Source: Lachnospiraceae bacterium (GTDB lineage: Bacteria > Bacillota > Clostridia > Lachnospirales > Lachnospiraceae). Taken from it: 64,000 bases of DNA. Where the stretch lies: assembly GCA_022647575.1 (NCBI GenBank), contig JALCKY010000006.1, positions 62,001-126,000 of the forward strand, read 5' to 3'. A model generated the notes under the pieces. The model was not told the DNA's origin. It worked only from the letters and a program-made list of their open reading frames with translations, and ran no database searches. Positions 2 to 42,605 of this stretch are shown here, one piece after another. The stretch's first letter is position 1; each line of letters starts with the position of its first letter. A program made the position numbers and the translations under genes.

Positions 2-178
2 CGCAGGGTCGAAAACATTCCGGAACCGGATAAAACGCAGAAGACGGAAGAGCACCGCATCAGCGGCGGAGAAGTGATCGACGGGGCCGTGCAGCATACG
101 GCCGGGAACGAAGCACAGCCTTCGGGAGAGGATCCGCAGAAGGAACTGGACATCCGGGATCAGATCAAACCTGTATAG
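2..178 (+). CDS. C-terminal end of an unidentified protein (partial)
   Basis: An open frame enters from the left edge and stops at TAG 176-178. The visible 58 residues are highly charged and rich in Glu, Lys, Asp, Gln and Pro, with no hydrophobic segment, so they look like a flexible hydrophilic tail. I recognise no domain. It is followed by a GC-rich hairpin and then uvrC on the same strand. The frame is supported by coding-like composition and by the terminator-like hairpin just past its stop, but function and N-terminus lie outside the window. Confidence 0.5.
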   Translation, partial: RRVENIPEPDKTQKTEEHRISGGEVIDGAVQHTAGNEAQPSGEDPQKELDIRDQIKPV

Positions 179-26590: not shown

Positions 26591-26693
26591 TTGTCCCCCT
26601 TCTAAATGGCTGTTCATTTATATTTTACGGTCGCGGAAAGACAAAGTCAATAAGAGGAAAATGTCAGAATCCATTCCGGATCCGGCGACGGCT

Positions 26694-26713
26694 AAATTGT
26701 CTGAAAATCAGAA
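26694..26713 (+). promoter_or_regulatory. Shared 20-bp nitrogen promoter element, copy at glnN
   Basis: AAATTGTCTGAAAATCAGAA, identical to 35605-35624 upstream of gltB. The core TCTGA-AAA-TCAGA (26700-26712) is a perfect dyad. It ends 16 bp before the -35 (17 bp at gltB), placing it around -60, a standard activator position. Confidence 0.8.
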
Positions 26714-26729
26714 CATAAGAAATGCACTC

Positions 26730-26758
26730 TTGACAGACTGGGGACGGGAAGGTATTAT
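26730..26758 (+). promoter_or_regulatory. Promoter of glnN
   Basis: Consensus TTGACA (26730-26735), 17-bp spacer, TATTAT (26753-26758). Transcription should begin near 26765, just before a terminator hairpin. Confidence 0.85.
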
Positions 26759-26769
26759 TATCCCCGAAC

Positions 26770-26805
26770 AAAGGCGTTCAAGTCAATCTTGAGCGCCTTT
26801 TTTTT
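26770..26805 (+). terminator. Promoter-proximal terminator (attenuator) in the glnN leader
   Basis: Arms AAAGGCGTTCAAG (26770-26782) and CTTGAGCGCCTTT (26788-26800) with TCAAT loop and a T8 run. It starts within about 5 nt of the predicted transcript start and 54 bp before the glnN ATG, so glnN expression requires read-through. I see no clear anti-terminator or ANTAR double-hairpin motif. Confidence 0.82.
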
Positions 26806-26853
26806 ATTTTCCGGAGCGCTCAGAGAATCAATTAACCAGAGAGGATGAGTGCT

Positions 26854-28971
26854 ATGGAAGAAAAAACAGTGAAAAGCGCAGCAGATCTTTTCGGAGAAGA
26901 TGTATTCAACGCATCCGTCATGATGGAAAGGCTGCCGAAGAGCGCCTATAAGAAACTGCAGCAGGTTCAGAAAAACGGCGCGGAGCTCGATCTTGCAACG
27001 GCCGATGTCATTGCCCATGAAATGAAAGAATGGGCTATTGAAAAGGGTGCGACCCATTATACGCACTGGTTCCAGCCTTTGACCGGCACGACGGCCGAGA
27101 AACATGATTCCTTCATTACCTCTCCGATGCCGAACGGGCATGTCCTCATGAGCCTGTCGGGAAAAGAACTGATCAAGGGAGAGCCGGATGCTTCTTCATT
27201 TCCGTCGGGCGGTCTCCGTGCAACCTTTGAAGCACGCGGCTATACCATCTGGGACTGCACGTCCCCGGCTTTCGTCCGGCACGACGAGAGCGGCGCGATC
27301 CTTGTCATCCCGACGGCTTTCTGTTCTTATACGGGCGAGGCGCTCGACCAGAAGACGCCTCTTCTCCGTTCCATGCAGGCAATCAATGAACAGTCTCTGA
27401 GACTGCTCCGCCTGTTCGGAAATACGACTTCCAAGAAAGTAACTCCTTCGGTCGGGCCGGAGCAGGAGTATTTTATCGTTGACCGTGAGAAATACCTGCA
27501 GAGGGATGACCTGATCTTCACGGGCAGAACGCTGTTCGGCGCGATGCCGCCGAAGGGACAGGAACTCGACGATCATTATTTCGGCACGATCCGTCCGAGG
27601 ATTGCCTCCTTCATGAAAGACGTCAACACGGAACTGTGGAAGCTCGGAGTTCCTGCCAAGACGCAGCATAACGAAGTGGCTCCTGCCCAGCACGAGCTCG
27701 CTCCGATCTATGAAGAGGCCAATGTGGCCATCGATCACAACCAGGTCGTCATGCAGACGCTGAAGAGGGTGGCGACCCGTCACGGCCTCCGCTGCCTGCT
27801 TCACGAGAAGCCGTTCGACGGAGTGAACGGTTCCGGCAAGCACAACAACTGGTCGATCACGACGGATGACGGCATCAATCTGCTGGAGCCGGGCAAGACG
27901 CCTCACGAGAACATCCAGTTCCTTCTGGTGCTGGCCTGCATCCTGAAGGCAGTCGATACGCACGCAGACCTGCTCCGCGAATCCGCAGCCGATGTCGGAA
28001 ATGACCACAGGCTCGGAGCAAACGAGGCGCCGCCGGCAATCATCTCCATTTTCCTCGGAGAGCAGCTGGAGGATGTCATGAAGCAACTGGTAAAGAGCGG
28101 ATCCGCCAAGAGCTCCCTGAAGGGCGGCAAGCTGAAGACCGGCGTCATGTCCCTGAACGACGTCAACAAGGATGCGACGGACCGCAACCGTACTTCGCCG
28201 TTTGCCTTTACGGGAAATAAGTTCGAGTTCCGCATGGTCGGTTCGCGTGATTCCATCGCGGCACCCAACACGGTGCTGAATGCCATCGTGGCGGAATCCT
28301 TTGCCGAAGCCTGCGACAAGCTCGAGAAGTCAAAGCATTTTGATACCGACGTGCACGACCTGATCAAAGAATACATGACGGATCATCAGAGAATCGTCTT
28401 CAACGGAAACGGCTATTCCGAGGAATGGGTAAAGGAAGCGGAGAAGAGGGGACTTCCGAACATTACTTCCATGGTGGATGCGATTCCGACCCTGACTTCC
28501 AAGAAAGCTGTCAGCCTGTTCGGCGATCTGAAGATTTTCACGAAGGCAGAACTGCTGTCGAGAGTCGAAGTAAAATATGAAGCTTATTCCAAGGCAATCA
28601 ATATTGAAGCGCTGACGATGCTGCAGATGGCCGGTGAAAAGATTATTCCGGCGATGATGAAGGAGACCGCAAAACTGGCGGATACGATCCTGGCAGTCAA
28701 GAACTGCGGCGGGGATGCCTCGGTCCAGGAGGAACTTCTTTCGGAAGTCACGAAATACCTGAAGGAAAGCGCAGCAGCCAAGGCCGGACTTGAGAAGGCA
28801 GTCCGGAAGGCGCAGGCAGCACCGGAAGGAAGAGAGCAGGCTGTCCGGTTCCGCGACGATGTCATCCCGGCCATGGCGGAGCTCCGGAAACCGGTGGATG
28901 AGGCAGAGCGGATCATTGACAAGGAAATCTGGCCGATGCCGACTTATTCAGACTTGCTATTTGAGGTCTGA
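26854..28971 (+). CDS. glnN: Glutamine synthetase type III
   Basis: ATP-dependent amidation of glutamate with ammonium. The 705-residue length and sequence (THYTHWFQPLTGTTAEKHDSF, GPEQEYFIVDRE, FDGVNGSGKHNNWS, NRTSPFAFTGNKFEFRMVG) are diagnostic for GSIII, a large dodecameric form common in Bacteroides and Clostridia. Start ATG 26854 is better spaced from AGAGAGG than the in-frame ATG 26845. It is preceded by the shared nitrogen element, a consensus promoter and a leader terminator, and followed 64 bp later by a type I enzyme. Confidence 0.97.
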   Translation: MEEKTVKSAADLFGEDVFNASVMMERLPKSAYKKLQQVQKNGAELDLATADVIAHEMKEWAIEKGATHYTHWFQPLTGTTAEKHDSFITSPMPNGHVLMSLSGKELIKGEPDASSFPSGGLRATFEARGYTIWDCTSPAFVRHDESGAILVIPTAFCSYTGEALDQKTPLLRSMQAINEQSLRLLRLFGNTTSKKVTPSVGPEQEYFIVDREKYLQRDDLIFTGRTLFGAMPPKGQELDDHYFGTIRPRIASFMKDVNTELWKLGVPAKTQHNEVAPAQHELAPIYEEANVAIDHNQVVMQTLKRVATRHGLRCLLHEKPFDGVNGSGKHNNWSITTDDGINLLEPGKTPHENIQFLLVLACILKAVDTHADLLRESAADVGNDHRLGANEAPPAIISIFLGEQLEDVMKQLVKSGSAKSSLKGGKLKTGVMSLNDVNKDATDRNRTSPFAFTGNKFEFRMVGSRDSIAAPNTVLNAIVAESFAEACDKLEKSKHFDTDVHDLIKEYMTDHQRIVFNGNGYSEEWVKEAEKRGLPNITSMVDAIPTLTSKKAVSLFGDLKIFTKAELLSRVEVKYEAYSKAINIEALTMLQMAGEKIIPAMMKETAKLADTILAVKNCGGDASVQEELLSEVTKYLKESAAAKAGLEKAVRKAQAAPEGREQAVRFRDDVIPAMAELRKPVDEAERIIDKEIWPMPTYSDLLFEV

Positions 28972-29035
28972 GGAATTAAGATTAGTGATATTTTTTAGAA
29001 AAGGCTGAGGCCGAACATCACAAAGGGGTGATACC

Positions 29036-30370
29036 ATGAAGCATTATACGAAGAAAGACATCATCAATCTGGTCAAGGAAGAGGACGTTGCTTTCATCCG
29101 GCTTCAGTTTACGGATATTTTCGGAACGCTGAAGAACGTGGCCATCACGTCGAGCCAGCTGGAAAAGGCACTGGACAACGAATGCATGTTTGACGGTTCT
29201 TCCATCGAAGGCTTCGTGCGTATCGAGGAGTCCGATATGTATCTGCATCCGGATTTCGATACCTTCTGCATTTTCCCGTGGAGGCCTCAGCAGGGCAAAG
29301 TCGCCAGGATGATCTGCGATGTCTATAAGACCGACGGCACTCCGTTCGAAGGAGATTCCCGCCACATCCTGAAACTGGCGGTGGCGGAAGCCGACAAAAT
29401 GGGGCTGACGCTGGAAGTCGGACCGGAATGCGAGTTCTTCCTTTTCCAGACCGATGACGATGCGGTGCCGACGACGGATACCCGCGAGCAGGCCGGATAC
29501 TTTGACCTCGGCCCGGTTGATTTCGGCGAGAATGCACGCCGCGACATGGTGCTGACGCTTGAGGAGATGGGCTTTGAAATCGAAGCATCCCATCATGAAA
29601 GCGCACCGGCGCAGCATGAGATCGATTTCCGCTACGACGATGCACTGGCGACGGCGGACAACATCATGACCTTTAAGCTGGCCGTCAAGACGATTGCCAA
29701 GCAGCACGGCCTGCATGCGACATTCATGCCGAAGCCGAAGGCCGGCGTGGACGGATCGGGCATGCATATCAATATGTCCCTCGTCCGGGACGGCAAGAAC
29801 ATTTTCTCAGACCCGAAGGATCCGGAAGGACTTTCGGAAGAAGCATACTGGTTCATGGGAGGAATCATGCAGCACATCAAGGGCATGTGCGCAATTCTGA
29901 ATCCTCTCGTGAATTCCTATAAGAGGCTGGTGCCGGGATACGAGGCACCGGTCTATATCGCGTGGAGCGCCAAGAACAGGAGCCCGCTGATCCGCATCCC
30001 TTATGCACCGAATGAGGAGCTGAAGCGTATCGAACTGAGAAGTCCGGATTCCTCGGCCAATCCGTATCTGGCTCTGGCCCTGTGCCTCCGCGCAGGACTT
30101 GACGGCATTAAGAATAAGATCAATCCGCCGGCATCCGTGAACCGGAACATTTTCCAGATGAGCGAGGCTGAGAGGGCAAAGCAGGGGATCGAGATGCTGC
30201 CGGGAACACTCAACCAGGCCCTTGCGGATTTCCGGGGAGATCTTTTTGTCCAGAAGGTACTGGGCAGCCATATTTCCGATAAATATCTTTCACAGAAACA
30301 GCTGGAGTGGTCGCAGTACTGCAGTCAGATTACGCAATGGGAGATTGATCAGTACCTGAACAGATTCTGA
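29036..30370 (+). CDS. glnA: Glutamine synthetase type I
   Basis: A 444-residue GSI, the alpha subtype length without the adenylylation-loop Tyr region of beta types. Seen: LQFTDIFGTLKNVAI, MFDGSSIEGF, GPECEFFLF, HHESAPAQHEIDFRY, GSGMHINMSL and NRSPLIRIP. AAAGGGGTGAT precedes the ATG. It follows GSIII by 64 bp with no terminator, so both may share the glnN transcript. The next gene, an ANTAR protein, begins 15 bp after its stop. Two synthetases in tandem suggest different roles or conditions of use. Confidence 0.96.
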   Translation: MKHYTKKDIINLVKEEDVAFIRLQFTDIFGTLKNVAITSSQLEKALDNECMFDGSSIEGFVRIEESDMYLHPDFDTFCIFPWRPQQGKVARMICDVYKTDGTPFEGDSRHILKLAVAEADKMGLTLEVGPECEFFLFQTDDDAVPTTDTREQAGYFDLGPVDFGENARRDMVLTLEEMGFEIEASHHESAPAQHEIDFRYDDALATADNIMTFKLAVKTIAKQHGLHATFMPKPKAGVDGSGMHINMSLVRDGKNIFSDPKDPEGLSEEAYWFMGGIMQHIKGMCAILNPLVNSYKRLVPGYEAPVYIAWSAKNRSPLIRIPYAPNEELKRIELRSPDSSANPYLALALCLRAGLDGIKNKINPPASVNRNIFQMSEAERAKQGIEMLPGTLNQALADFRGDLFVQKVLGSHISDKYLSQKQLEWSQYCSQITQWEIDQYLNRF

Positions 30371-30385
30371 TGCCGGAGGCGCCTT

Positions 30386-30931
30386 TTGGTTAATATCATC
30401 GTGGTTTTCAGAAAAATCGAAGACGCCAGGAATATCAAGAATATCCTGATGCGCAGCGGCTTTTCTTCCACGTCCGTAAGCAGCACCGGAATACAGACCA
30501 TCGGACAGATCGACAATCTGAAGAACGGAATCATTATCTGCGGATACCGTCTGACGGATATGCTGTATTCCGAACTGCGCGAAAACCTGCCGGAAGATTT
30601 TGAAATGCTTCTGATGGCGAAGGAAGACGTGCTTCCGGCGCTCCGGGACAATGATCTCGTCTGCCTGCCGCTTCCGGCAAGGGCGAAGGATCTAGTCGAT
30701 ACCGTTGCAATGATGCAGCGGAATGTCGAAGTCCGCATCAAAAAACGGAAGCTCCGGCCGCGCATGCATACGGAAGAGGAAGAAGAAATCATCCTCGAGG
30801 CAAAGCGCGTCCTGATGAACCGGAACAACATGACTGAACCGGAGGCGCACCGCTACATCCAGAAAAGCGCCATGGATACGGGAACAGGATTCGTAGAGAC
30901 CGCACAGATGGTCCTCGATCTTTTCCAATAG
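30386..30931 (+). CDS. ANTAR-domain antiterminator with degenerate receiver (NitR-like)
   Basis: A 181-residue protein: N-terminal receiver-like fold (about 1-115) and C-terminal ANTAR three-helix RNA-binding domain (EAKRVLMNRNNMTEPEAHRYIQKSAMDTG). ANTAR proteins bind leader RNA hairpins and prevent termination. The receiver lacks its acidic pair (VVFRKIED) and the acceptor Asp (IIICGYRL), so control is probably by protein contact or ligand and not phosphorylation. TTG start with CGGAGG 6 bp upstream. Downstream of glnA this matches the clostridial glnA-nitR arrangement. The terminators before glnN and gltB are its obvious candidate targets. Confidence 0.87.
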   Translation: MVNIIVVFRKIEDARNIKNILMRSGFSSTSVSSTGIQTIGQIDNLKNGIIICGYRLTDMLYSELRENLPEDFEMLLMAKEDVLPALRDNDLVCLPLPARAKDLVDTVAMMQRNVEVRIKKRKLRPRMHTEEEEEIILEAKRVLMNRNNMTEPEAHRYIQKSAMDTGTGFVETAQMVLDLFQ

Positions 30932-30974
30932 AAGTTCTGCAAGACTGAAACATCTTTGAAAGGAGGATGGAGCA

Positions 30975-32327
30975 ATGGCAGCAAGTGAAATCATTTATAT
31001 GAAAGGTGTCACGGAAAATAATCGCAATCTGGAAATGGCGGAGCTCCTGAACCCGTCAAAGATCGGAACAGCCGTCACGACGCGCGGAGCCGTGCACACG
31101 ATCCGCCGCTTAAGCCGCGTGACGTTTCTCGTGCTGAGAAAACGGGACGGCCTGATCCAGTGCGTTTCCGAAGGGGACAAATCACCCGAAGGTCTGGAGA
31201 GCCTGACCGAGGCATCGACTGTCGAGGTGAACGGCATTCTGAAGGAAAATGAGAAAGCCCCGAACGGGGTGGAAATCAGTCTCATTTCCATCCGGGTGCT
31301 TTCCGTTCCGGCGGAGCCTCTGCCGGTGCCGATTTCCAAACTGAAAATGAACATTTCGCTGGAAAAGAATTTGAATCTCCGCCCTGTCACGCTTCGCAAT
31401 CTGCGTGAGAGGGCTAAGTTCAGGGTGCAGGAAGGAATTGTTCGGGGCTTCCGTGATTATCTGTATCAGCAGGGATTTACGGAGATCCATACACCGAAGA
31501 TTTCATCCAGAGGCGCCGAGGGAGGCGCCAATATTTTTAAGCTGGAATATTTCCACCGTCCGGCAGTCCTGGCACAGAGTCCGCAGTTCTGGAAGCAGAT
31601 GACGGTCGGCGTGTTCGACCGGGTCTTCGAGGTGGGACCGGTCTTCCGTGCGGAGAAGCACAATACCAAGCGGCACCTGAACGAATATACTTCTCTGGAT
31701 TTTGAGATGGCCTATATCGACAGCTTCTACGACATCATGGAAATGGAAACCGGCGTCATCCGCTCGATGGTTTCGATGCTGGCCGAAAACTATCAGAAGC
31801 CGCTGGAGCTTCTGGGCGTGACGGAGCTGCCGAAGACCGACCGGATTCCGTCCGTGCGCTTTGACAGGGCCAAGGAACTGGTGTCGGAAAAATACGGGAG
31901 GCCGATCCGCAACCCGTATGACCTTGAGCCGGAGGAGGAAGCCCTGATCGGGCGCTACTTCAAGGAAGAGTGCGATGCGGACTTCGTGTTCGTGACGCAT
32001 TACCCGTCGAAGAAAAGACCGTTCTATGCAATGGACGATCCGCAGAATCCGAAATTCACGCTGAGCTTCGACTGTCTGTTCCGCGGACTGGAAATCACGA
32101 CCGGCGGGCAGAGAATCCATGACTACGCCGAACTGATGAAAAAGATTGAGAAGAAGGGCATGACGGCGGAAGGAATGGATGCTTATCTGATGGCCTTTAA
32201 GCACGGCATGCCGCCTCACGGAGGACTCGGCATCGGACTGGAAAGATTCACGATGCAGATGCTGAATGAAGAAAATGTCAGGGAGACGACGCTCTTCCCG
32301 AGGGATATGACGAGGCTGGAACCATGA
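30975..32327 (+). CDS. aspS: Aspartyl-tRNA synthetase, archaeal type, probably non-discriminating
   Basis: Class II synthetase of 450 residues: OB-fold anticodon domain at the N-terminus, then the catalytic core with IHTPKISSRGAEGGANIFKLEYF, FRAEKHNTKRHLNEYTSLDFEM and GGLGIGLERF (motif 3). It lacks the GAD insertion of bacterial AspRS (about 590 residues). The archaeal-like form usually charges both tRNA-Asp and tRNA-Asn. gatC begins inside its stop codon, so the Asp-tRNA(Asn) it makes can be amidated by the neighbouring enzyme. That pairing is strong support for non-discriminating activity. AGGAGG lies just upstream of the ATG. Confidence 0.92.
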   Translation: MAASEIIYMKGVTENNRNLEMAELLNPSKIGTAVTTRGAVHTIRRLSRVTFLVLRKRDGLIQCVSEGDKSPEGLESLTEASTVEVNGILKENEKAPNGVEISLISIRVLSVPAEPLPVPISKLKMNISLEKNLNLRPVTLRNLRERAKFRVQEGIVRGFRDYLYQQGFTEIHTPKISSRGAEGGANIFKLEYFHRPAVLAQSPQFWKQMTVGVFDRVFEVGPVFRAEKHNTKRHLNEYTSLDFEMAYIDSFYDIMEMETGVIRSMVSMLAENYQKPLELLGVTELPKTDRIPSVRFDRAKELVSEKYGRPIRNPYDLEPEEEALIGRYFKEECDADFVFVTHYPSKKRPFYAMDDPQNPKFTLSFDCLFRGLEITTGGQRIHDYAELMKKIEKKGMTAEGMDAYLMAFKHGMPPHGGLGIGLERFTMQMLNEENVRETTLFPRDMTRLEP

Positions 32328-32620
32328 GCGGACAGAAAATTACGGATGAGACGATTGATGAGATTGAAATCCTCGCAAAGCTGACGCTGTCGCCCAAGGA
32401 GCGGGAACAGGCAAAGTCCGATCTTTCGGAAATGCTTTCCTATATTGATACGCTGAAGGAACTGGACACCGAAGGCGTCGAGCCGATGTCCCATGCATTT
32501 CCCCTTGTCAATGTGATGCGGGAAGATGTCGTGACGAACGGTGACGGAAAAAAGGATTCGCTGGCCAATGCGCCGGCGGAAAAAGACGGCATGTATCAGG
32601 TGCCGCGCACATTTGAATAG
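32324..32620 (+). CDS. gatC: Asp/Glu-tRNA amidotransferase subunit C
   Basis: Small 98-residue GatC that tethers GatA and GatB. Family pattern: ILAKLTLSPKEREQAKSDLSEMLSYIDTL, then DTEGVEPMSHAFPLVNVMREDV. ATGA overlap with aspS. gatA starts 9 bp after its stop. Confidence 0.95.
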   Translation: MSGQKITDETIDEIEILAKLTLSPKEREQAKSDLSEMLSYIDTLKELDTEGVEPMSHAFPLVNVMREDVVTNGDGKKDSLANAPAEKDGMYQVPRTFE

Positions 32621-32629
32621 GAGGCTGCC

Positions 32630-34087
32630 ATGAAACTGGAAGAGATGACAGCCCTTGAGCTGTCGGAAAAAATCAGGAACAGGGAATGCACGGTGCAGGA
32701 GGCACTTTCCTCGGTGCTGGAAAGCATCCGCGAAAAGGAAAGCATCAATCACTGCTATGTGACGCAGGAAGACGAAGAGAAGCTTTTTGAGAAAGCGGAC
32801 GCCCTGCAGGTCGCCGTCGGAAGCGGCGAGCTCAGCGGAGCCCTGGCCGGAGTGCCGGTCGCGGTGAAGGACAACCTCTGCGTGGAAGGAATGCCGTGCA
32901 CCTGCTCTTCAAAGATCCTGGAGAATTTCCGTCCGTCCTATACGGCGGAAGCGGTCAGGAACCTGGAGAAAGCAGGAGCCCTGATCATCGGAAAGACAAA
33001 TATGGATGAATTCGCGATGGGAAGCACGACCGAGACTTCTGCCTTCGGACCGACCAGGAATCCGGTCAATCCGGACTATGTGCCGGGCGGTTCTTCCGGC
33101 GGCTCTGCCTGCGCCGTGGCAGCAGGAGAGGCCTTTGCGGCGCTCGGCTCCGATACCGGAGGTTCGATCCGCGAGCCGGCTTCCTACTGCGGCATCGTCG
33201 GCCTCAAGCCGACCTACGGAACGGTTTCCCGCTTCGGACTGGTTGCCTACGGTTCTTCCCTTGACCAGATCGGGCCTCTGACGAAAGACGTATCCGATGC
33301 GGCCGCTGTCCTGGGAATCATTTCCTCACATGATCCGAAGGATTCAACTTCCGTCAGGAGAGAGGACACCGATTTCCTTTCGGCTCTTCAGGACGACGTG
33401 AAGGGAATGAAAATCGGAGTGCCGGAGGAATACTTCGGAGAAGGCCTGGATCCGGAAGTCTCCAGAGCCGTGCTGGAAGCAGCCGGCGTGCTGAAGGAAA
33501 AGGGAGCTTCGGTCGAGAAGTTCAATTTAAGTTATGTAAACTACGCCGTGCCCTGCTATTATACCATCGCAGATGCGGAAGCCAGCTCGAATCTTGAAAG
33601 ATTCGACGGCATCAAGTACGGCTACCGGACCAAAGAGTATGAGGACCTGCACAGCATGTACAGGCGGACGAGAAGCGAAGGCTTCGGTCCGGAAGTGAAG
33701 CGGCGGATCATGCTGGGAAGCTTTGTCCTGAGCTCCGGCTATTACGATGCCTATTATCTGAAAGCACTGAAGGTCAAAGCCCTGATCAAGAAAGCATTTG
33801 ACGAAGCCTTTGCGAAATACGACCTGATCCTGGGACCGGCTTCCCCGACGACCGCGCCGCGCATCGGGGAAAGTCTTTCGGACCCGATGAAGATGTATCT
33901 GGGCGACATCTATACGGTGCCGGCCAATCTGTCAGGTCTCCCGGGACTCTGCGTCCCTTGCGGGAAAGATTCCAGAGGACTGCCGGTCGGACTGCAGCTG
34001 ACCGCGGACGCTTTCTGCGAGAAAAAGCTGATCCGTGCCGGCTATGCCTATGAATGCGCGGGGAAGGAGGCACGGAAGGATGTCTGA
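32630..34087 (+). CDS. gatA: Asp/Glu-tRNA amidotransferase subunit A
   Basis: Glutamine-hydrolysing amidase subunit, 485 residues. The amidase-signature triad is visible: Lys in PVAVKDNLC (near 79), and the Ser pair in PGGSSGGSACAVAAGEAFAA and GSDTGGSIREPAS (near 155-180). GGAGG precedes the ATG. Ammonia is channelled to GatB. It draws on the glutamine pool made by the upstream synthetases. Confidence 0.97.
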   Translation: MKLEEMTALELSEKIRNRECTVQEALSSVLESIREKESINHCYVTQEDEEKLFEKADALQVAVGSGELSGALAGVPVAVKDNLCVEGMPCTCSSKILENFRPSYTAEAVRNLEKAGALIIGKTNMDEFAMGSTTETSAFGPTRNPVNPDYVPGGSSGGSACAVAAGEAFAALGSDTGGSIREPASYCGIVGLKPTYGTVSRFGLVAYGSSLDQIGPLTKDVSDAAAVLGIISSHDPKDSTSVRREDTDFLSALQDDVKGMKIGVPEEYFGEGLDPEVSRAVLEAAGVLKEKGASVEKFNLSYVNYAVPCYYTIADAEASSNLERFDGIKYGYRTKEYEDLHSMYRRTRSEGFGPEVKRRIMLGSFVLSSGYYDAYYLKALKVKALIKKAFDEAFAKYDLILGPASPTTAPRIGESLSDPMKMYLGDIYTVPANLSGLPGLCVPCGKDSRGLPVGLQLTADAFCEKKLIRAGYAYECAGKEARKDV

Positions 34088-35516
34088 AAGATATGAGACC
34101 GTTATCGGCCTGGAGACCCATGTCGAACTGGCAACGAAGACGAAGCTGTTCTGCGGCTGCTCCACGGAATTCGGAGGAGCGCCGAATACCCACACCTGCC
34201 CTGTCTGCACCGGCATGCCGGGCTCCCTGCCCGTCCTGAACCGCCAGGCGCTGAAGTATGCAATCGCGGTGGGACTGGCGACCAGCTGCGAAATCACGCG
34301 TCACAGCAAATTCGACCGGAAGAATTATTTCTATCCGGACAACCCGCAGAACTATCAGATCTCGCAGCTCTATCTGCCGATCTGCCGGAACGGACATATC
34401 GAGATCGAGACGGCGGCGGGAAAGAAGAGCGTCGGCATCCACGAAATCCATATGGAAGAGGACGCGGGGAAACTGGTCCACGATGAGTGGACGGACACGT
34501 CGCTCGTCGACTACAACCGTTCGGGAGTGCCCCTGATTGAAATTGTCTCGGAACCGGACATGAGAAGTCCGGAAGAAGTCATTGCCTATCTGAAGAAGCT
34601 GAAGAGCATCATCGGTTATCTGGGAGCCTCGGACTGCAAGCTGCAGGAAGGCTCGATGAGGGCAGACGTGAATATTTCCGTGAGGCCGTTCGGCTCCGAC
34701 GTGCTCGGGACCAGGACGGAAATGAAGAACATCAATTCCTTCAAGGCGATTGCCCGCTGCATCGAGGGAGAACGGGAAAGACAGATCGAAATTCTGGAGG
34801 GAAAGAAGGAAGTCGTTCAGGAAACCCGCCGCTGGGATGACAACAAAGAGTATTCGAAGGCGATGAGAAGCAAGGAAGACGCCAAAGACTACCGCTATTT
34901 CCCGGACCCGGATCTTGTGCCGATCGATGTCAGCGACGAAATGCTGGAGGAAATCAGAAAGGAGCAGCCGGAATTTGCCGAGGCGAAGGCACTCCGTTAT
35001 CAGAAAGAGTACGGGCTGCCGGAAAAGGATATTGCCATCCTGACCGGAGACCGGCATCTGGCGGATCTTTTTGAAAAGTCGGCGGCTCTTTCGGGAGAGC
35101 CGAAGAAAACCGCCAACTGGCTGATCGTCGAGACGCAGCAGCTGCTGAAGGAAAAGGAAGAAGATCCGGAGGATCTCCGCTTCAGTCCGGGGCACCTGGC
35201 ATCGCTTGTGAGGATGACGTCGGAGAACAGGATCAGTTCCGGTTCCGCAAAAGAGATCTTCCTGCATATGTATGAGGATGACTGCGATCCGGAGAAATAT
35301 GCGGAAGAACACAGGCTGCTGATCGTGCGGGATGAAGGAGCTCTGAAGGTGGCTGTGCAGAAGGCAGTTGCCGAGAACCCGCAGGCCGTCGAGGACTTCC
35401 GGAACGGAAAGAAGAAAGCGGTCGGCGCCCTGATCGGCAGCGTTATGAAGGAGACGCACGGAAAGGCCGATCCTGCCGAGGCCGGGAAGCTGCTGGAGGA
35501 AATCCTGAGTTCCTGA
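34080..35516 (+). CDS. gatB: Asp/Glu-tRNA amidotransferase subunit B
   Basis: ATP-dependent kinase and transamidase subunit, 478 residues. Family marks: VIGLETHVELATKTKLFCGC, CPVCTGMPGSLPVLN, YPDNPQNYQISQ, the C-terminal helical YqeY-like tail (DFRNGKKKAVGALIGSVMKET). Start 34080 overlaps gatA by 8 bp and has GGAAGG before it; an earlier ATG at 34035 lies inside gatA. With aspS it completes the indirect Asn-tRNA route. Confidence 0.96.
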   Translation: MSERYETVIGLETHVELATKTKLFCGCSTEFGGAPNTHTCPVCTGMPGSLPVLNRQALKYAIAVGLATSCEITRHSKFDRKNYFYPDNPQNYQISQLYLPICRNGHIEIETAAGKKSVGIHEIHMEEDAGKLVHDEWTDTSLVDYNRSGVPLIEIVSEPDMRSPEEVIAYLKKLKSIIGYLGASDCKLQEGSMRADVNISVRPFGSDVLGTRTEMKNINSFKAIARCIEGERERQIEILEGKKEVVQETRRWDDNKEYSKAMRSKEDAKDYRYFPDPDLVPIDVSDEMLEEIRKEQPEFAEAKALRYQKEYGLPEKDIAILTGDRHLADLFEKSAALSGEPKKTANWLIVETQQLLKEKEEDPEDLRFSPGHLASLVRMTSENRISSGSAKEIFLHMYEDDCDPEKYAEEHRLLIVRDEGALKVAVQKAVAENPQAVEDFRNGKKKAVGALIGSVMKETHGKADPAEAGKLLEEILSS

Positions 35517-35604
35517 ACTTACAGGAAATGCCGGAGGAAGTCCAGACTTCCTGAACTTTCGGAAAATCGGATACCCCGGGGCCTGCGGAAAACAGATTTT
35601 CAGC

Positions 35605-35624
35605 AAATTGTCTGAAAATCAGAA
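35605..35624 (+). promoter_or_regulatory. Shared 20-bp nitrogen promoter element, copy at gltB
   Basis: Identical to 26694-26713. Here a second half-site, GATTTTCAG (35595-35603), forms a 9-bp inverted repeat with CTGAAAATC (35612-35620), 8 bp apart. The element ends 17 bp before the -35. Confidence 0.8.
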
Positions 35625-35641
35625 AACTTTCCCGCGAACTC

Positions 35642-35670
35642 TTTACAATTGAAAAGTTGTGTTGTATAGT
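35642..35670 (+). promoter_or_regulatory. Promoter of gltBD
   Basis: TTTACA (35642-35647), 17-bp spacer, TATAGT (35665-35670). Predicted transcript start near 35677. Confidence 0.8.
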
Positions 35671-35679
35671 TTCTCAAAA

Positions 35680-35722
35680 GGTCGCAAAGAAGCGCATCGA
35701 ACTTCTTTGCGACCCTTTTTTT
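35680..35722 (+). terminator. Promoter-proximal terminator (attenuator) in the gltB leader
   Basis: Perfect 13-bp stem GGTCGCAAAGAAG/CTTCTTTGCGACC (35680-35692, 35702-35714), 9-nt loop, then CT7. It begins about 4 nt after the predicted transcript start and 28 bp before the gltB ATG, the same design as glnN. Confidence 0.85.
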
Positions 35723-35749
35723 ATGTTTTGAACACAGGAGGGCTGTCAA

Positions 35750-38700
35750 ATGTTTCAAGTCAGAAATCCGCTTCCGGTTCCGCCGCTTTATGATCCTTCG
35801 TACGAGCATGATGCGTGCGGCATCGGAGTATGCGTCGATATCAAGGGAAGGAAAAGCCGCCGCAATGTGGACGACGCGCTGAAGATCGTCGAGAACCTGG
35901 AGCACCGTGCCGGGCGCGATGCCGAAGGAAAGACCGGCGACGGCGTCGGAATCCTTACCCAGATCCCGCACAAGTTCATGCAGAAGGTGACGAAGCCTTT
36001 GGGCATCGTGCTGGGAAATGAACGCGAATACGGCGTGGGCATGTTTTTCTTTCCCCAGCGGGAAATGGAACGCAGCCGTGCCAAGAAAATGTTCGAGGTC
36101 GTCATCCGAAAGGAAGGACTGAACTTCCTCGGATGGAGAGAAGTTCCGGTGGATGCTTCCGTCCTCGGGACCAAGGCGCTGGAATGCATGCCGTGCATCA
36201 TGCAGGGCTTTGTGGAAAAGCCGCCCCGCACGGAAAAAGGACTGGAGTTCGACCGGAAGCTTTATGTCGCGCGCCGCGTTTTCGAGCAGTCCAATGACAA
36301 TACATATGTCGTCTCTCTCTCGAGCCGGACGATCGTCTATAAGGGAATGCTCCTGGTCAGGCAGCTGAGGACGTTCTACAGCGACCTTCAGGACCCGGAC
36401 TATGAGACGGCCATTGCCATCGTGCATTCCCGTTTCTCGACGAATACGTTCCCGAGCTGGGAGAGGGCGCATCCCTACCGTTTCATCGTGCACAACGGGG
36501 AAATCAACACGATCCGCGGAAATGCCGACAAGATGTATGCCCGCGAGGAAAATATGGATTCCGACAATCTTCACGGCGAGATGCCGAAGATCATGCCGGT
36601 CATCAATGCGTCGGGCTCCGATTCCGCGATGCTTGACAACACCCTGGAATTCCTGACGATGAGCGGAATGGATCTGCCTCTGGCGGTCATGATCACGATT
36701 CCCGAACCGTGGGAGAACAACAAGAATATTTCCCAGGAGAAGCGGGATTTCTATCAGTATTATGCGACGATGATGGAGCCGTGGGACGGCCCGGCCTCGA
36801 TCCTGTTCTCCGACGGAGACGTCGTGGGAGCGGTTCTGGACCGCAACGGCCTGCGTCCTTCCCGGTACCTCATCACGAAAGATGAGCGGCTGATCCTCTC
36901 TTCCGAAGTCGGCGTCCTTCCGGTCCGGCCTCAGGATATCCTGGTCAAGGACCGCCTGCGTCCGGGCAAGATGCTGCTGGTCGACCTGCGGAAAGGAAAA
37001 CTGATCGACGACAACGAACTGAAGGAGAAGTATGCGACGCAGCAGCCCTACGGCGAATGGCTCGACAACAACCTTGTTTTCCTGAAGGACCTGCGCATCC
37101 CGAACAACCGCATCCCGGAATACAGGGGCGAAGAACTGCAGAGGATGCAGAAGGCGTTCGGCTACAACTACGAGGAAATCATCGACGGCATCCTGCCGAT
37201 GGCTGAGACGGGAAATGAAAAGACGGCATCGATGGGCGTCGATACGGCGCTCCCGGTATTCAATCCGGGCTACCATCCGCTGTTTCATTTCTTCAAGCAG
37301 CTGTTTGCACAGGTAACGAACCCGCCGATCGATGCGCTGAGGGAGGAAGTCGTCACGTCGACTTCCGTCTATATCGGGACGTCCGGCAATCTTCTTGAGG
37401 AATATCCGAAGAACTGCAACCTGCTGAAGGTCCACAACCCGATCCTGACCAATACCGACCTTCTGAAGATCAAGAACATGCATGCCGAAGGCTTCAAGGT
37501 CGAAGTGCTGCCGATCACGTATTACGCCAGCACGTCGCTCGAAAAGGCTATTGAGCATCTTTTTGTGGAAGCGGACCGTGCCTACCGGGACGGCGTGAAC
37601 ATCATCATCCTGTCGGACAGAGGGTTCGATGAGAACCATGTCGCGATTCCGTCCCTTCTGGCAGTCTCCGCCCTGAACCGGCATCTGGTCAACACGAAGA
37701 AGAGGACGTCGGTCGCGCTGATTCTGGAATCCGGAGAACCCTGCGAAGTGCATCATTTCGCGACGCTGCTCGGCTACGGAGCCTGTGCGGTCAATCCGTA
37801 CCTGGCCCAGGAAACCATCCGGGGCCTTATCAGCGACGGACTGCTGGACAAGGATTACTATGCCGCGGTCAACGACTATAACAAGGCGATTCTGAACGGC
37901 ATTGTCCGCATCGCATCGAAGATGGGCATTTCCACGATCCAGTCCTATCAGGGCTCGCAGATTTTTGAAGCCATCGGCATCGACCAGGATGTCATCGACC
38001 GGTATTTCACCAATACGGTCTGCCGCGTCGGAGGCCTTTCCCTGAAGGATATCGAAGAGGAAGTCGAGAAGAGACATTCGAAGGCTTTTGATCCGCTCGG
38101 ACTTTCCCTCAACCTGACGGTCGATTCCATCGGCGATCATTCCATGCGCAGCGGAGCGGAAGAGCATCTCTACAATCCTGCGACGATCCATCTGCTGCAG
38201 CTGTCGACGAGGACCGGAAACTATGATCTGTTCAGGCAGTATACGAAACTGGTTGATGAAAATTCTTCAATCATGAACCTGCGCGGACTGATGGACTTCC
38301 GATATCCGGAAAAAGGAATTCCGATCGAAGAAGTCGAGAGCGTGGATTCCATCGTAAGGAGATTCAAGACCGGGGCGATGAGCTACGGGTCCATTTCCAA
38401 AGAAGCCCATGAGACACTGGCCGCTGCCATGAATTCCATCCACGGCGAGTCGAATACCGGGGAAGGCGGAGAGGACGAAGAACGGCTGAACGTGCGGCCG
38501 GGCGCTCCGAATAAATGCTCGGCGATCAAGCAGGTCGCTTCGGCGCGTTTCGGGGTCACCTCTGAGTATCTGTGCTCCGCGAAGGAAATCCAGATTAAAA
38601 TGGCGCAGGGAGCCAAGCCCGGAGAAGGCGGAAACCTTCCCGGCGGAAAAGTATATCCCTGGGTGGCAAAGACAAGACATTCGACGCCCGGCGTGGCGCT

Positions 38701-40303
38701 GATTTCGCCGCCGCCGCATCATGACATTTATTCCATCGAGGATCTGGCTGAGCTGATCTATGACCTGAAAAATGCCAACAGGAAAGCAAGAATCAATGTG
38801 AAGCTGGTCTCCGAAGCCGGCGTCGGCACGGTTGCGTCCGGCGTTGCCAAGGCGGGAGCACAGGTCATCCTCATTTCCGGCTATGACGGTGGAACCGGGG
38901 CGGCGCCCAGGAACTCCATCCACAACGCGGGACTTCCCTGGGAGCTCGGCGTTGCGGAGACCCATCAGACCCTGATCCTGAACGGACTGCGCAGCAGGGT
39001 GCGCCTCGAGACGGACGGCAAGCTGATGACGGGACGGGACGTCTGCATCGCGGCCATGCTGGGCGCGGAGGAATTCGGTTTTGCCACGGCGCCCCTGATC
39101 ACGATGGGCTGCGTCATGATGAGAGTCTGCAATCTGGATACCTGCCCGATGGGCATCGCGACGCAGAACCCGGAACTCAGGAAGCGTTTCTCCGGCAAGC
39201 CGGAATACGTCGTGAACTTCATGAAATTCATCGCCGAGAATCTGCGCGAGTACATGGCGAAACTCGGCATCCGTACGATCGACGAGCTGGTCGGAAGAAG
39301 CGACCTGCTGAAGAAAAAAGATAATCTTGCGGACTATGAACAGAAAATCGATCTGGACAGGATCCTGGAAAATCCGTATGCGGGAAAGAAGGATACAGCC
39401 TGCATTTTCGATCCGAAGCATGTCTATGATTTCCATCTCGAGAAGACGCTGGACGAAAAGGTCCTGCTGAAGGAGTTGGAGCCGGCGATCGAAAAGAACG
39501 AAGCGAAATCGCTGGAAGTGGACGTCCGGAATACGGACCGCGCCTTCGGTACGATCCTGGGCTCGGTCATCACGGAAAAGCTCGGGAAAAAGGCCATGGA
39601 AAATCAGTACCTGATCCGATGCAGCGGTGCGGGCGGCCAGAGCTTCGGCGCTTTCATCCCGAAGGGACTGACGCTCGAACTGACCGGCGACAGCAACGAC
39701 TATTTCGGGAAGGGTCTGTCCGGAGGGACGCTGGTCCTGTATCCGCCGAAGGGCAGCCAGTTCAGGCAGGATGAGAATATCATCGTGGGAAATGTGGCGC
39801 TTTACGGAGCGACGAGCGGGAAAGCATTTATCTGCGGCGTGGCCGGGGAGAGATTCGCCGTGAGGAATTCCGGAGCGACGGCAGTAGTCGAAGGCGTCGG
39901 AGACCACGGCTGCGAATACATGACCGGCGGCCGCGTTGCGGTCCTGGGCATGACCGGAAAGAATTTTGCGGCCGGAATGAGCGGCGGCATCGCCTACGTG
40001 CTGGATGAGAAGAATGATCTTTATACACGCCTCAACAAAACGATGATCGCCTCTTACGAGCTGTCCGACAAATATGACGTAGCGGAACTGAAGGGCATGC
40101 TGGAAGAGCATGTGCTGAGGACGGGGTCCGTAAAAGGAAGCGAGATCCTGGCTCATTTCGAGGAGTATCTTCCGAAGTTCAAGAAGATCATTCCGCACGA
40201 TTATGAGAAGATGCTGAAGCGCATCGGGGAAATGGAAGAGAAAGGCCTGTCGGAATCGCAGGCCCAGATCGAGGCATTCTATGCCGCAAAGAAGGAGGCC
40301 TGA
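35750..40303 (+). CDS. gltB: Glutamate synthase large subunit
   Basis: Makes glutamate from glutamine and 2-oxoglutarate with GltD. The 1517-residue length is full. A short propeptide precedes the class II amidotransferase nucleophile Cys23 (HDACGIGV). The FMN/synthase domain has GAMSYGSISKEAHE and PPPHHDIYSIEDL; the 3Fe-4S cluster cysteines are in CVMMRVCNLDTCPMG. The C-terminal GXGXG beta-helix domain is present. ACAGGAGGGC precedes the ATG. gltD starts 3 bp after the stop. Control is by the shared element, promoter and leader terminator. Confidence 0.98.
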   Translation: MFQVRNPLPVPPLYDPSYEHDACGIGVCVDIKGRKSRRNVDDALKIVENLEHRAGRDAEGKTGDGVGILTQIPHKFMQKVTKPLGIVLGNEREYGVGMFFFPQREMERSRAKKMFEVVIRKEGLNFLGWREVPVDASVLGTKALECMPCIMQGFVEKPPRTEKGLEFDRKLYVARRVFEQSNDNTYVVSLSSRTIVYKGMLLVRQLRTFYSDLQDPDYETAIAIVHSRFSTNTFPSWERAHPYRFIVHNGEINTIRGNADKMYAREENMDSDNLHGEMPKIMPVINASGSDSAMLDNTLEFLTMSGMDLPLAVMITIPEPWENNKNISQEKRDFYQYYATMMEPWDGPASILFSDGDVVGAVLDRNGLRPSRYLITKDERLILSSEVGVLPVRPQDILVKDRLRPGKMLLVDLRKGKLIDDNELKEKYATQQPYGEWLDNNLVFLKDLRIPNNRIPEYRGEELQRMQKAFGYNYEEIIDGILPMAETGNEKTASMGVDTALPVFNPGYHPLFHFFKQLFAQVTNPPIDALREEVVTSTSVYIGTSGNLLEEYPKNCNLLKVHNPILTNTDLLKIKNMHAEGFKVEVLPITYYASTSLEKAIEHLFVEADRAYRDGVNIIILSDRGFDENHVAIPSLLAVSALNRHLVNTKKRTSVALILESGEPCEVHHFATLLGYGACAVNPYLAQETIRGLISDGLLDKDYYAAVNDYNKAILNGIVRIASKMGISTIQSYQGSQIFEAIGIDQDVIDRYFTNTVCRVGGLSLKDIEEEVEKRHSKAFDPLGLSLNLTVDSIGDHSMRSGAEEHLYNPATIHLLQLSTRTGNYDLFRQYTKLVDENSSIMNLRGLMDFRYPEKGIPIEEVESVDSIVRRFKTGAMSYGSISKEAHETLAAAMNSIHGESNTGEGGEDEERLNVRPGAPNKCSAIKQVASARFGVTSEYLCSAKEIQIKMAQGAKPGEGGNLPGGKVYPWVAKTRHSTPGVALISPPPHHDIYSIEDLAELIYDLKNANRKARINVKLVSEAGVGTVASGVAKAGAQVILISGYDGGTGAAPRNSIHNAGLPWELGVAETHQTLILNGLRSRVRLETDGKLMTGRDVCIAAMLGAEEFGFATAPLITMGCVMMRVCNLDTCPMGIATQNPELRKRFSGKPEYVVNFMKFIAENLREYMAKLGIRTIDELVGRSDLLKKKDNLADYEQKIDLDRILENPYAGKKDTACIFDPKHVYDFHLEKTLDEKVLLKELEPAIEKNEAKSLEVDVRNTDRAFGTILGSVITEKLGKKAMENQYLIRCSGAGGQSFGAFIPKGLTLELTGDSNDYFGKGLSGGTLVLYPPKGSQFRQDENIIVGNVALYGATSGKAFICGVAGERFAVRNSGATAVVEGVGDHGCEYMTGGRVAVLGMTGKNFAAGMSGGIAYVLDEKNDLYTRLNKTMIASYELSDKYDVAELKGMLEEHVLRTGSVKGSEILAHFEEYLPKFKKIIPHDYEKMLKRIGEMEEKGLSESQAQIEAFYAAKKEA

Positions 40304-40305
40304 AG

Positions 40306-41799
40306 ATGGGCAAGCCGACAGGATTCATGGAATATGAAAGGGAGGTTTCCCAGACGGTCGATCCGAGAGAACGGATCGCAAATTTCGGGGAATTCCACAT
40401 TTACCTGAGCAGGGAGGAACAGCAGATCCAGGGCGCGCGCTGCATGAACTGCGGCGTGCCGTTCTGCCAGTCCGGCATGATGCTGATGGGCATGACATCG
40501 GGCTGTCCGCTTCATAACCTGATTCCGGAATGGAATGACCTGGCCTACAGGGGAAGCTTCGAGCAGGCCTATGAAAGACTGGCCAAGACCAACAATTTCC
40601 CGGAATTCACTTCCAGGGTCTGCCCTGCGCTGTGCGAGGCAGCCTGCACGTGCGGGCTTTATGACGATCCCGTGAGCACGAAGGAAAATGAATACCGGAT
40701 TATTGAAAATGCTTTTCAGAAGGACCTGGTCAGGGCGGAGCCGCCCAAGACGCGTACCGGGAAATCGGTTGCCGTCATCGGATCGGGACCGGCCGGGCTG
40801 GCAGCAGCCGACGAGCTGAACAAACGGGGACACCTGGTGACGGTCTTTGAACGCAGCGACCGTCCCGGCGGCCTTCTGATGTACGGCATTCCCAACATGA
40901 AGCTCGACAAGAAAATCGTTGAGAGAAGAATTGAGCTCATGAAGAAAGAAGGGGTCATTTTCAGGACCGGAGAGGATGTCGGAAAGAATACGGCGGCGAA
41001 GGAAATCCTGAAAAAATTCGACCGGGTCATCCTGGCCTGCGGAGCGAAGCAGGCACGCGACATCAGCGCACCGGGGAGAGAGGCGGAAGGCATTTATTTT
41101 GCCGTTGATTTCCTCTCGGCAAATACGAAAAAGCTGCTGGATCCGGATTCGGGGAGCAGGGATTTTGTTTCTGCCAAAGGGAAAAACGTCGTCATCATCG
41201 GCGGCGGGGACACAGGCAATGACTGCGTCGGAACCTGCATCCGCCATGGCTGCAAGTCAGTCGTGCAGGTTGAAATGCTTCCGTGCCCGCCGAAGTCAAG
41301 AGCGGAGAACAACCCGTGGCCGGAGTGGCCGAAGGTCCTGAAGACCGACTACGGCCAGGAAGAAGCCATTGCCGTTTTCGGAAAGGATCCGCGCATTTAT
41401 GAAACGACGGTGAAGGAATTCCTGAAGGACGGCAAGGGAAAACTGTCCGGCGTGACCGTGGTGAAACTGGAATGGAAAAAAGATGAAAAGACCGGAAGAA
41501 TGAACCCGGTGCCCGTGGAAGGCAGCGAAAAGACACTGCCTTGCGAACTGCTGCTGATTGCAGCCGGTTTCCTCGGAAGCGAGAAATACGTGACGGATGC
41601 CTTCGGGGTCAGCCTGACTCCGAGGACGAATGTCGAGACGGAGCCCGGCAGATATGCATCGTCGGCGGATCGGGTCTTTACGGCCGGCGATATGCACCGC
41701 GGCCAGTCCCTCGTCGTCTGGGCTATCCGTGAGGGGAGAGAAGCGGCCTATGCGGTCGACTGCGATCTCATGGGCTATTCGAACCTTTCGGTTCAGTAA
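40306..41799 (+). CDS. gltD: Glutamate synthase small subunit
   Basis: NADPH-oxidising flavoprotein partner of GltB, 497 residues. N-terminal 4Fe-4S region CMNCGVPFCQSG and CPALCEAACTCG, FAD motif VAVIGSGPAGLAAADEL near residue 149, NADPH site NVVIIGGGDTGNDCVGT, and a C-terminal FTAGDMHRGQSLVVWAI. AAGGAGG sits 5 bp before the ATG. A GC-rich hairpin lies just downstream. Confidence 0.97.
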   Translation: MGKPTGFMEYEREVSQTVDPRERIANFGEFHIYLSREEQQIQGARCMNCGVPFCQSGMMLMGMTSGCPLHNLIPEWNDLAYRGSFEQAYERLAKTNNFPEFTSRVCPALCEAACTCGLYDDPVSTKENEYRIIENAFQKDLVRAEPPKTRTGKSVAVIGSGPAGLAAADELNKRGHLVTVFERSDRPGGLLMYGIPNMKLDKKIVERRIELMKKEGVIFRTGEDVGKNTAAKEILKKFDRVILACGAKQARDISAPGREAEGIYFAVDFLSANTKKLLDPDSGSRDFVSAKGKNVVIIGGGDTGNDCVGTCIRHGCKSVVQVEMLPCPPKSRAENNPWPEWPKVLKTDYGQEEAIAVFGKDPRIYETTVKEFLKDGKGKLSGVTVVKLEWKKDEKTGRMNPVPVEGSEKTLPCELLLIAAGFLGSEKYVTDAFGVSLTPRTNVETEPGRYASSADRVFTAGDMHRGQSLVVWAIREGREAAYAVDCDLMGYSNLSVQ

Positions 41800-41946: not shown

Positions 41947-42036
41947 GGAGAAGTACCCAAGCTGGCCGAAGGGACACCCCTGGAAAGGGTGCAGGCCGTT
42001 AATAGCGGCGCAAGGGTTCGAATCCCTTCTTCTCCG
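41947..42036 (+). tRNA. tRNA-Ser(GGA)
   Basis: Acceptor GGAGAAG/CTTCTCC, anticodon loop CTGGAAA (GGA), long variable arm, T-arm GGGTTCGAATCCC, discriminator G, no CCA. First of seven clustered tRNA genes. Confidence 0.95.
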
Positions 42037-42041
42037 TCCGT

Positions 42042-42115
<74 letters not shown>

Positions 42116-42145
42116 TTGCAATTTTGCTCTTGTATCATGTATAAT
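42116..42145 (+). promoter_or_regulatory. Internal promoter within the tRNA cluster
   Basis: TTGCAA (42116-42121), 18-bp spacer, TATAAT (42140-42145), 17 bp before tRNA-Asn. It gives the last five tRNAs a second start. Confidence 0.6.
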
Positions 42146-42162
42146 GTAGGAAAGAGTTTTAT

Positions 42163-42234
42163 TCCTCGATAGCTCAATGGTAGAGCACTCGGCTGTTAAC
42201 CGAGGGGTTGTAGGTTCGAGCCCTACTCGGGGAG
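42163..42234 (+). tRNA. tRNA-Asn(GUU)
   Basis: Acceptor TCCTCGA/TCGGGGA, anticodon loop CTGTTAA (GTT), discriminator G, no CCA. This is the expected substrate of the AspRS plus GatCAB route encoded upstream. Confidence 0.95.
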
Positions 42235-42258
42235 CTGCCATGATCTGCATGGCAATCT

Positions 42259-42330
42259 GGCCCCATGGTCAAGCGGTTAAGACATCGCCCTTTCACGGCG
42301 GTAACAGCAGTCCGAATCTGCTTGGGGTCA
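42259..42330 (+). tRNA. tRNA-Glu(UUC)
   Basis: Acceptor GGCCCCA/TGGGGTC with one G-T pair, anticodon loop CTTTCAC (TTC), discriminator A, no CCA. A T8 run directly follows. Confidence 0.94.
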
Positions 42331-42338
42331 TTTTTTTT

Positions 42339-42412
42339 GGATCTTTAGCTCAGTTGGTTAGAGCAACCGGCTCATAACCGGTCGGTCCTGGGTTCGAGTC
42401 CCCGAAGATCCA
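42339..42412 (+). tRNA. tRNA with CAU anticodon: elongator Met or lysidine-modified Ile2
   Basis: Acceptor GGATCTT/AAGATCC, anticodon loop CTCATAA (CAT), discriminator A, no CCA. It lacks the C1-A72 mismatch and GGG/CCC features of initiator tRNA. The acceptor and anticodon arm also resemble some Bacillota tRNA-Ile2, so I leave Met versus Ile2 open. Confidence 0.85.
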
Positions 42413-42438
42413 CTTACCGAAGAATATGAACCTCGTTT

Positions 42439-42512
42439 GGCCCAGTGGCTCAGTTGGTTAGAGCGCCGCCCTGTCACGGCGGAGGTCAGGAGTCCGAGTC
42501 TCCTCTGGGTCG
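42439..42512 (+). tRNA. tRNA-Asp(GUC)
   Basis: Acceptor GGCCCAG/CTGGGTC, anticodon loop CTGTCAC (GTC), discriminator G, no CCA. Confidence 0.95.
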
Positions 42513-42520
42513 TTTTATTT

Positions 42521-42605
42521 GCCGGTGTGGCGGAATAGGTAGACGCAAGGGGACTTAAAATCCCTCGGAGTAAAATCCGTATCGGTTCGAGTCCGATCAC
42601 CGGCA
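42521..42605 (+). tRNA. tRNA-Leu(UAA)
   Basis: Acceptor GCCGGTG/CACCGGC, anticodon loop CTTAAAA (TAA), long variable arm of a class II tRNA, T-loop GTTCGAGTC, discriminator A, no CCA. Last tRNA of the cluster. Confidence 0.94.

Follow-up and report, generated by a model that had tools for sequence, protein, structure and literature searches.

What does an identical 20-base sequence do upstream of both a glutamine synthetase gene, glnN, and the glutamate synthase gene gltB in the same genome? The question is raised by a stretch of 64,000 nucleotides from a Lachnospiraceae bacterium (assembly GCA_022647575.1, contig JALCKY010000006.1, positions 62,001 to 126,000), here called the window and numbered from its first base. 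A first-pass annotation of this DNA had reported the 20-mer before the two genes, and the identity of the copies is confirmed. Our reading, to which we give a probability of about 0.6, is that glnN and gltB are under serial control by an upstream operator, most likely that of an activator, and by an ANTAR attenuator in the leader of each transcript. The operator character of the 20-mer and the ANTAR character of the leaders are well supported. A wider proposal, for which we would give rather less than even odds, is that an undescribed regulator, serving mainly the glutamate synthase of Lachnospiraceae, precedes, as the first of two serial controls, a minimal ANTAR attenuator for which one 5'-terminal hexaloop suffices, against the two-hairpin model.

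The putative operator and its family box

The 20-mer, AAATTGTCTGAAAATCAGAA, is present in two identical copies, both on the forward strand, each followed by a promoter that was predicted from the sequence. Scores refer to the family matrix described below.

26694..26713, forward strand: putative 20-mer operator 5' of glnN; dyad core TCTGA-AAA-TCAGA at 26700-26712; score 15.0, minus strand
26730..26758, forward strand: predicted glnN promoter TTGACA-17-TATTAT (TTGACA at 26730-26735, TATTAT at 26753-26758)
35605..35624, forward strand: putative 20-mer operator 5' of gltB; dyad core at 35611-35623; score 21.2, minus strand
35642..35670, forward strand: predicted gltB promoter TTTACA-17-TATAGT (TTTACA at 35642-35647, TATAGT at 35665-35670)

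The distance of 16-17 bp from the 20-mer to the −35 element, also reported earlier, holds for both promoters, with gaps of 16 bases to TTGACA at glnN and 17 bases to TTTACA at gltB and with spacers of 17 bp. The −35 element is weak at gltB and good at glnN, and the dyad centre lies about 60-61 bp 5' of the transcription start expected from the −10 element. Allowing up to three mismatches, AAATTGTCTGAAAATCAGAA has two matches in the window, compared with none in 100 dinucleotide shuffles. Likewise, the exact 13-bp core, TCTGAAAATCAGA, occurs at only these two places in the window's own genome (G000; 3,026,614 bases in 11 contigs, 94% complete). With one mismatch the core is found at 16 further places there, none of which resembles the family box, six scoring below 13 bits and the other ten at most 0.5.

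Related sites were sought in a scan of named genomes with whole GltB, in which 80 of 591 matching loci were kept (70-78% identity), most of which carry the label Lachnospiraceae or that of a genus commonly assigned to this family. The promoter pattern TT[TG]ACA-16..18-TAnnnT was recognisable 5' of gltB in 53 of the 80, the other 27 having no recognised promoter or too little sequence. A dyad like that of the window stands before TTTACA in 37 of these foreign upstreams (37 of the 53 with a promoter), at 17 bp (n = 11) or 18 bp (n = 26), and TTTACA is the −35 element in all 37, as it is at the window gltB promoter. The consensus of these sites, aATTnTCAAATwATCwGACAATtT, is the family box; its promoter-proximal half is nearly invariant, and its self-correlation as a dyad is 0.70 at register 0 and at most 0.17 at other shifts.

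A matrix built from the 37 foreign gltB sites, with nothing from the window's genome, exceeded 6 bits in the 64-kb window only at the two 20-mer sites. Among the 74 named-genome gltB upstreams available for scoring (the 80 minus four without upstream sequence and two, L135 and L137, with little), 43 reached at least 15 bits with training loci scored leave-one-out, seven of them outside the training set, whereas 0 of 1320 shuffled upstreams did so. The leave-one-out scores had a median of 27.7, the lowest training locus scoring 7.0. Furthermore, the closest gltB, that of G019 (80% identity; genome 86% complete), has a box of 32.7 bits and a near-perfect dyad. The fixed spacing in 37 of the 80 upstreams and the selection of only the two window sites by the matrix support a dimeric DNA-binding protein acting near −60 on both promoters, where the first-pass annotation had proposed an activator, and the 20-mer looks like its operator. 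A second half-site that had been described at gltB, CAGATTTTCAG, does exist; it scores below 6 bits with the family matrix.

The two window copies deviate from the family consensus in the same ways and are both inverted, their strong half facing away from the promoter, and a common origin of the two is a fair guess. Five foreign loci (L109, L123, L127, L133 and L168) carry a second, mostly weaker box 38-39 bp 5' of the first, perhaps a sign that two dimers bind. In G019 (locus L040), the position 5' of glnN that the box takes up in the window holds a short repeat, CCCCAAGTGCTTGAAAATTTCT, in two copies, and the ANTAR leader is kept.

Predicted leader terminators and the ANTAR protein

In the leaders of both glnN and gltB, the 5' arm of a predicted terminator overlaps a hairpin with a six-base loop. 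These terminators with their ANTAR hairpins, and an ANTAR gene between the two targets, had been missed by the first-pass annotation.

26766..26779, forward strand: ANTAR-type hexaloop hairpin GAAC-AAAGGC-GTTC (A at loop position 1, G at 4), at the expected glnN transcript start
26770..26805, forward strand: predicted intrinsic terminator of the glnN leader, overlapping the hexaloop hairpin (z −7.29 for 26765-26808)
30386..30931, forward strand: REC-ANTAR antiterminator gene (NitR-like), directly 3' of glnA and between the two targets
35680..35722, forward strand: predicted intrinsic terminator of the gltB leader, overlapping the hexaloop hairpin (z −5.36 for 35677-35727)
35683..35694, forward strand: ANTAR-type hexaloop hairpin CGC-AAAGAA-GCG (A at loop position 1, G at 4), at the expected gltB transcript start

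ANTAR targets are described, in excerpts of PMC3369931, as hexaloops with A at position 1 and G at position 4. In 51 of 132 gltB and glnN upstreams, a hexaloop with this pair of letters overlaps the 5' arm of the terminator; other letter pairs reach at most nine. Covariation in the stems of 39 distinct hairpins was 0.718; it was 0.201 in shuffles and no more than 0.162 with sliding. Changes on both sides were seen at all four stem pairs, the outermost of which is unpaired in 19 of the 39; because only hairpins with three or more pairs had been selected, the inner three are biased towards pairing. A scan of the window with Rfam returned tRNAs only.

Of the 51 hairpin leaders, 14 had no recognised promoter and 37 did, in 36 cases with 8 or more matches out of 12. 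Among these 36 leaders with a clear promoter, 29 have a hairpin that starts no more than 14 nt after the −10 element, and therefore no first hairpin fits in the transcript. Consistent with this, no P1-like hairpin, and hence no tandem of two, was found in any of the 37 hairpin leaders with a promoter, and a second A..G hexaloop further downstream occurs in only one of the 51. Excerpts of PMC8934654 redefine the smallest motif that ANTAR proteins bind as a single hexaloop, state that each of two hexaloops must be contacted to prevent termination, and pose the function of a single hexaloop as an open question on which work is called for.

The frame at 30386-30931 contains an ANTAR domain (E 2.4e-13). 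Its product has a sequence match to Rv1626 (E 6.7e-06) and weak ones to EutV (0.0075) and NasR (0.053). Its predicted fold comprises a receiver, a helix and a three-helix ANTAR domain, with a mean predicted local distance difference test score (pLDDT) of 88.6 from a three-row alignment, and is nearest in PDB to Rv1626 and EutV, AmiR ranking sixth. In the alignment, glycine occupies the place of the phosphoryl-accepting aspartate, a site that we assigned ourselves, in the window protein and in two relatives in L141 and L162, and phosphorylation is therefore unlikely as the signal. The window protein would pair with the glnN and gltB leaders. In L011 (G002), a frame at 803-1372 that by eye resembles the window ANTAR protein over its length ends directly 5' of gltB; a hexaloop terminator lies between the two, and this locus has no box.

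The genes of nitrogen assimilation around the ANTAR gene are as follows.

26845..28971, forward strand: glnN, long-type glutamine synthetase (708 aa), weak family matches only
29036..30370, forward strand: glnA, type I glutamine synthetase
35750..40303, forward strand: gltB, glutamate synthase large subunit
40306..41799, forward strand: gltD, glutamate synthase small subunit

The assignments of gltB and gltD are clear; glnN was called type III from its length and from weak NCBIfam matches below the cut-off. Between glnA with the ANTAR gene and gltB, positions 30975-35516 hold genes for a non-discriminating aspartyl-tRNA synthetase and for gatC, gatA and gatB, whose product is a tRNA-dependent amidotransferase, a user of glutamine. 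Seven tRNA genes in a row follow 3' of gltD (41947-42605), and a response regulator with GGDEF and EAL domains is encoded divergently from glnN (24896-26617, minus strand).

Breadth of the regulon and candidate proteins

Several observations weigh against serial control through a shared operator. The box scores below 15 bits in 31 of the 74 named-genome gltB upstreams and is missing from 27 of the 28 gltB upstreams in the set of relatives, G019 being its sole carrier. Conservation upstream of orthologues, the absence of which the first-pass annotation had named as grounds for refutation, was found for gltB and not for glnN, where the box occurs in 0 of 28 other upstreams. The best strand is minus for the window sites and G019 and plus for all 43 foreign sites, and the window sites lie 3-4 bp closer to the −35 element than the family sites. 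The box and ANTAR layers are separable, because among 76 gltB upstreams 23 have a box without a detected hairpin and 14 the reverse (20 have both and 19 neither). ANTAR proteins in genomes with ANTAR leaders were seen only in the window, L141, L162 and L011. That the bound protein activates rather than represses, as had been claimed, is suggested by the geometry of the sites. Moreover, no regulator family could be tied to the box.

The spread of the box through whole genomes belongs among these points. In 17 genomes the box pattern, with at most one mismatch, gave 51 matches at 47 places, compared with four for a reversed control pattern. The gltB site accounts for 15 of the 47 (the gltB boxes in the genomes of L104 and L144 exceed the allowed mismatches and are outside the 15), and the other 32 are elsewhere, possibly reflecting further targets or codon usage. 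The excess over the control lies mostly inside open frames; when all 32 were read, ten scored at least 15 bits, eight of these within open frames. L238 has a box of at least 15 bits in the gap 5' of an ispE-like gene, and in L339 (G069) a box of 20.8 bits at 550-566 lies directly 5' of TATAAT and a gene of no assigned function. The latter is the only good box in a clear promoter position among the 32, and its gene is a possible further target. A looser match in the window's own genome (L188, 17.5 bits) overlaps the start codon of a 172-codon frame, and G019 has an exact match of a shorter pattern at the start of a 120-codon frame (C70).

No box of at least 13 bits was found in 2.5 kb around a second long-type glutamine synthetase gene (G000:C2:154604-155347, L293). 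The gene for AsnA, an ammonia-dependent asparagine synthetase, recurs 3' of gltD in 8 of 22 gltB neighbourhoods, and likewise has no box of at least 13 bits (L101 19809-20819 and counterparts in seven other loci). The regulon thus looks narrow, mainly gltB and extended to glnN in the window species. The broad nitrogen regulon envisaged earlier is not borne out by the single good promoter-position box outside gltB, in a survey that did not search for amt, glnK, nif or urea genes individually by name.

Which protein would bind the box? Nine gene families that recur in 22 gltB neighbourhoods, scanned with Pfam, included no DNA-binding regulator, and the leading named candidates are CodY and a LysR protein. 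CodY would recognise the box as two overlapping CodY motifs and, together with GTP and branched-chain amino acids, would act there as a repressor of glutamate and glutamine synthesis; we consider this unlikely, while ranking it first among the named proteins. Each of the 18 genomes checked has one CodY gene. The best match to the CodY motif, AATTTTCWGAAAATT, is 12 of 15 in 25 of the 37 boxes, compared with a mean of 8.0 in nearby 31-mers, and the window copies match it at 13 of 15. Overlapping CodY sites are reported as a 24-mer with a 6-nt overlap in excerpts of PMC10415144, and the box has, like them, AT-rich arms and a CWGA...TCWG core, its own form CWRA-N3-TCWG retaining their key letters. 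However, its arms are one base closer than in that 24-mer, giving a 23-mer with an overlap one base greater. This N3 form occurs 13 times in 1.77 Mb of fetched loci, 11 times at gltB, against two loose N4 matches. Moreover, at two positions the box has a fixed letter that departs from the CodY consensus (A in 36 of 37, C in 31 of 37), and a fixed site 5' of the −35 element is, in our judgement, unusual for a repressor. Sites of the CodY consensus were few and of little help, one lying directly 5' of codY in G065.

A LysR-type activator resembling GltC, with a T-N11-A core, a centre near −60 and few targets, appears slightly less probable again. The typical position of a LysR site is near −65, and TCAnATnATCTGA is a T-N11-A dyad 5' of the promoter with its centre at about −60 to −64. 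There is a precedent, which the first-pass annotation did not consider, in GltC of Bacillus subtilis, described in excerpts of PMC6794564 as activating gltAB through boxes I and II. However, a LysR search over 18 genomes found no orthologue common to G062, G066 and G068, all of which have strong boxes; these are metagenome bins and one weak LysR match of G066 (L279) was outside the comparison, so that the absence is not proof. The sole LysR match of G068 belongs to the L184 group, which has no counterpart in G062 or among the compared G066 proteins. Among 110 gltB loci, a LysR gene resembling that of the window's own genome was seen only in L125 and L149, 6-8 kb off and in no case adjacent, and the fetched LysR genes have no box of 13 bits upstream.

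Binding by GlnR/TnrA, of the MerR family, or by Lrp/AsnC is far less probable. The 5-WWW-5 core resembles Lrp-type sites, and an AsnC-type protein occurs in 10 of 12 genomes (one in nine, two in one); none was found in G000 (94% complete) or, despite its near-perfect dyad, in G019 (86% complete). The window copies do not fit TGTNA-N7-TNACA, and the statement that GlnR/TnrA sites look different fails for the family consensus. Some full family boxes fit this pattern, that of L102 reading TGTCA-AATTATC-TGACA, and some show the G7/C13 preference given in excerpts of PMC3412718. Against this, the window's own genome, at 94% completeness, yielded one MerR_1 match, in a 258-codon frame, and no MerR protein of GlnR size; the MerR_1 protein is related to proteins of G070 and G071 and not to the only one of G066. 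Finally, chance occurrence of a functionless AT-rich motif common to two promoters is hardly credible, for although there are only two sites in the own genome and the box is absent from most close gltB upstreams and from every one of the 28 at other glnN genes, none arose in 100 window shuffles, an independent matrix selected exactly the two window sites, and the spacing is conserved in 37 promoters.

Probable serial control and related systems

Serial control of glnN and gltB by operator and attenuator could proceed as follows. A dimeric protein, most likely an activator, would bind about 60 bp 5' of the gltB start and, in the window species, of the glnN start also, and would help RNA polymerase at the gltB promoter with its weak −35 element and at the glnN promoter with its good one. 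The transcript would then open with the ANTAR hexaloop hairpin overlapping the intrinsic terminator, a second gate, and unless the REC-ANTAR protein encoded between the two targets held the hairpin, transcription would end after some 40-50 nt. The upstream protein would set the frequency of initiation and the ANTAR protein would decide passage of the first 50 bases. In series, these two switches would open both halves of the glutamine synthetase/glutamate synthase (GS-GOGAT) cycle together. In the window species, glnN may have been added to the targets of a regulator that in other species acts mainly on gltB.

The arrangement resembles known systems in parts. As in the GltC system, glutamate synthase would be controlled from an upstream dyad with a T-N11-A core; unlike it, no adjacent regulator gene was seen here, no common LysR orthologue was found in the compared box genomes, and an ANTAR layer and a second target, glnN, are added. 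By analogy, the box regulator may work like GltC, as an activator of glutamate synthase, without necessarily being a GltC protein. With the ANTAR attenuators of EutV, NasR and AmiR and the nitrogen regulons of Ramesh et al. (2012), the leaders share an A1/G4 hexaloop over an intrinsic terminator, nitrogen genes and a REC-ANTAR protein. The described systems have two hairpins (P1 and P2), whereas here one hexaloop lies at the extreme 5' end of the transcript.

In the glnA-nitR cluster of Clostridium saccharobutylicum, the ANTAR gene for NitR directly follows glnA, near the glutamate synthase genes. The window ANTAR gene is likewise directly 3' of glnA and near gltB and gltD; unlike in that cluster, aspS-gatCAB intervene and an upstream operator precedes both targets. 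Literature searches covering NitR, CodY or ANTAR in Lachnospiraceae, and gltB footprinting turned up nothing on this system.

To our knowledge, little is known of the control of ammonia assimilation in the abundant bacteria of gut and rumen. The box offers a bait for finding the regulator. Furthermore, the short leaders, 29 of which are candidate natural leaders without room for a first hairpin, make the single-hexaloop question posed in excerpts of PMC8934654 testable.

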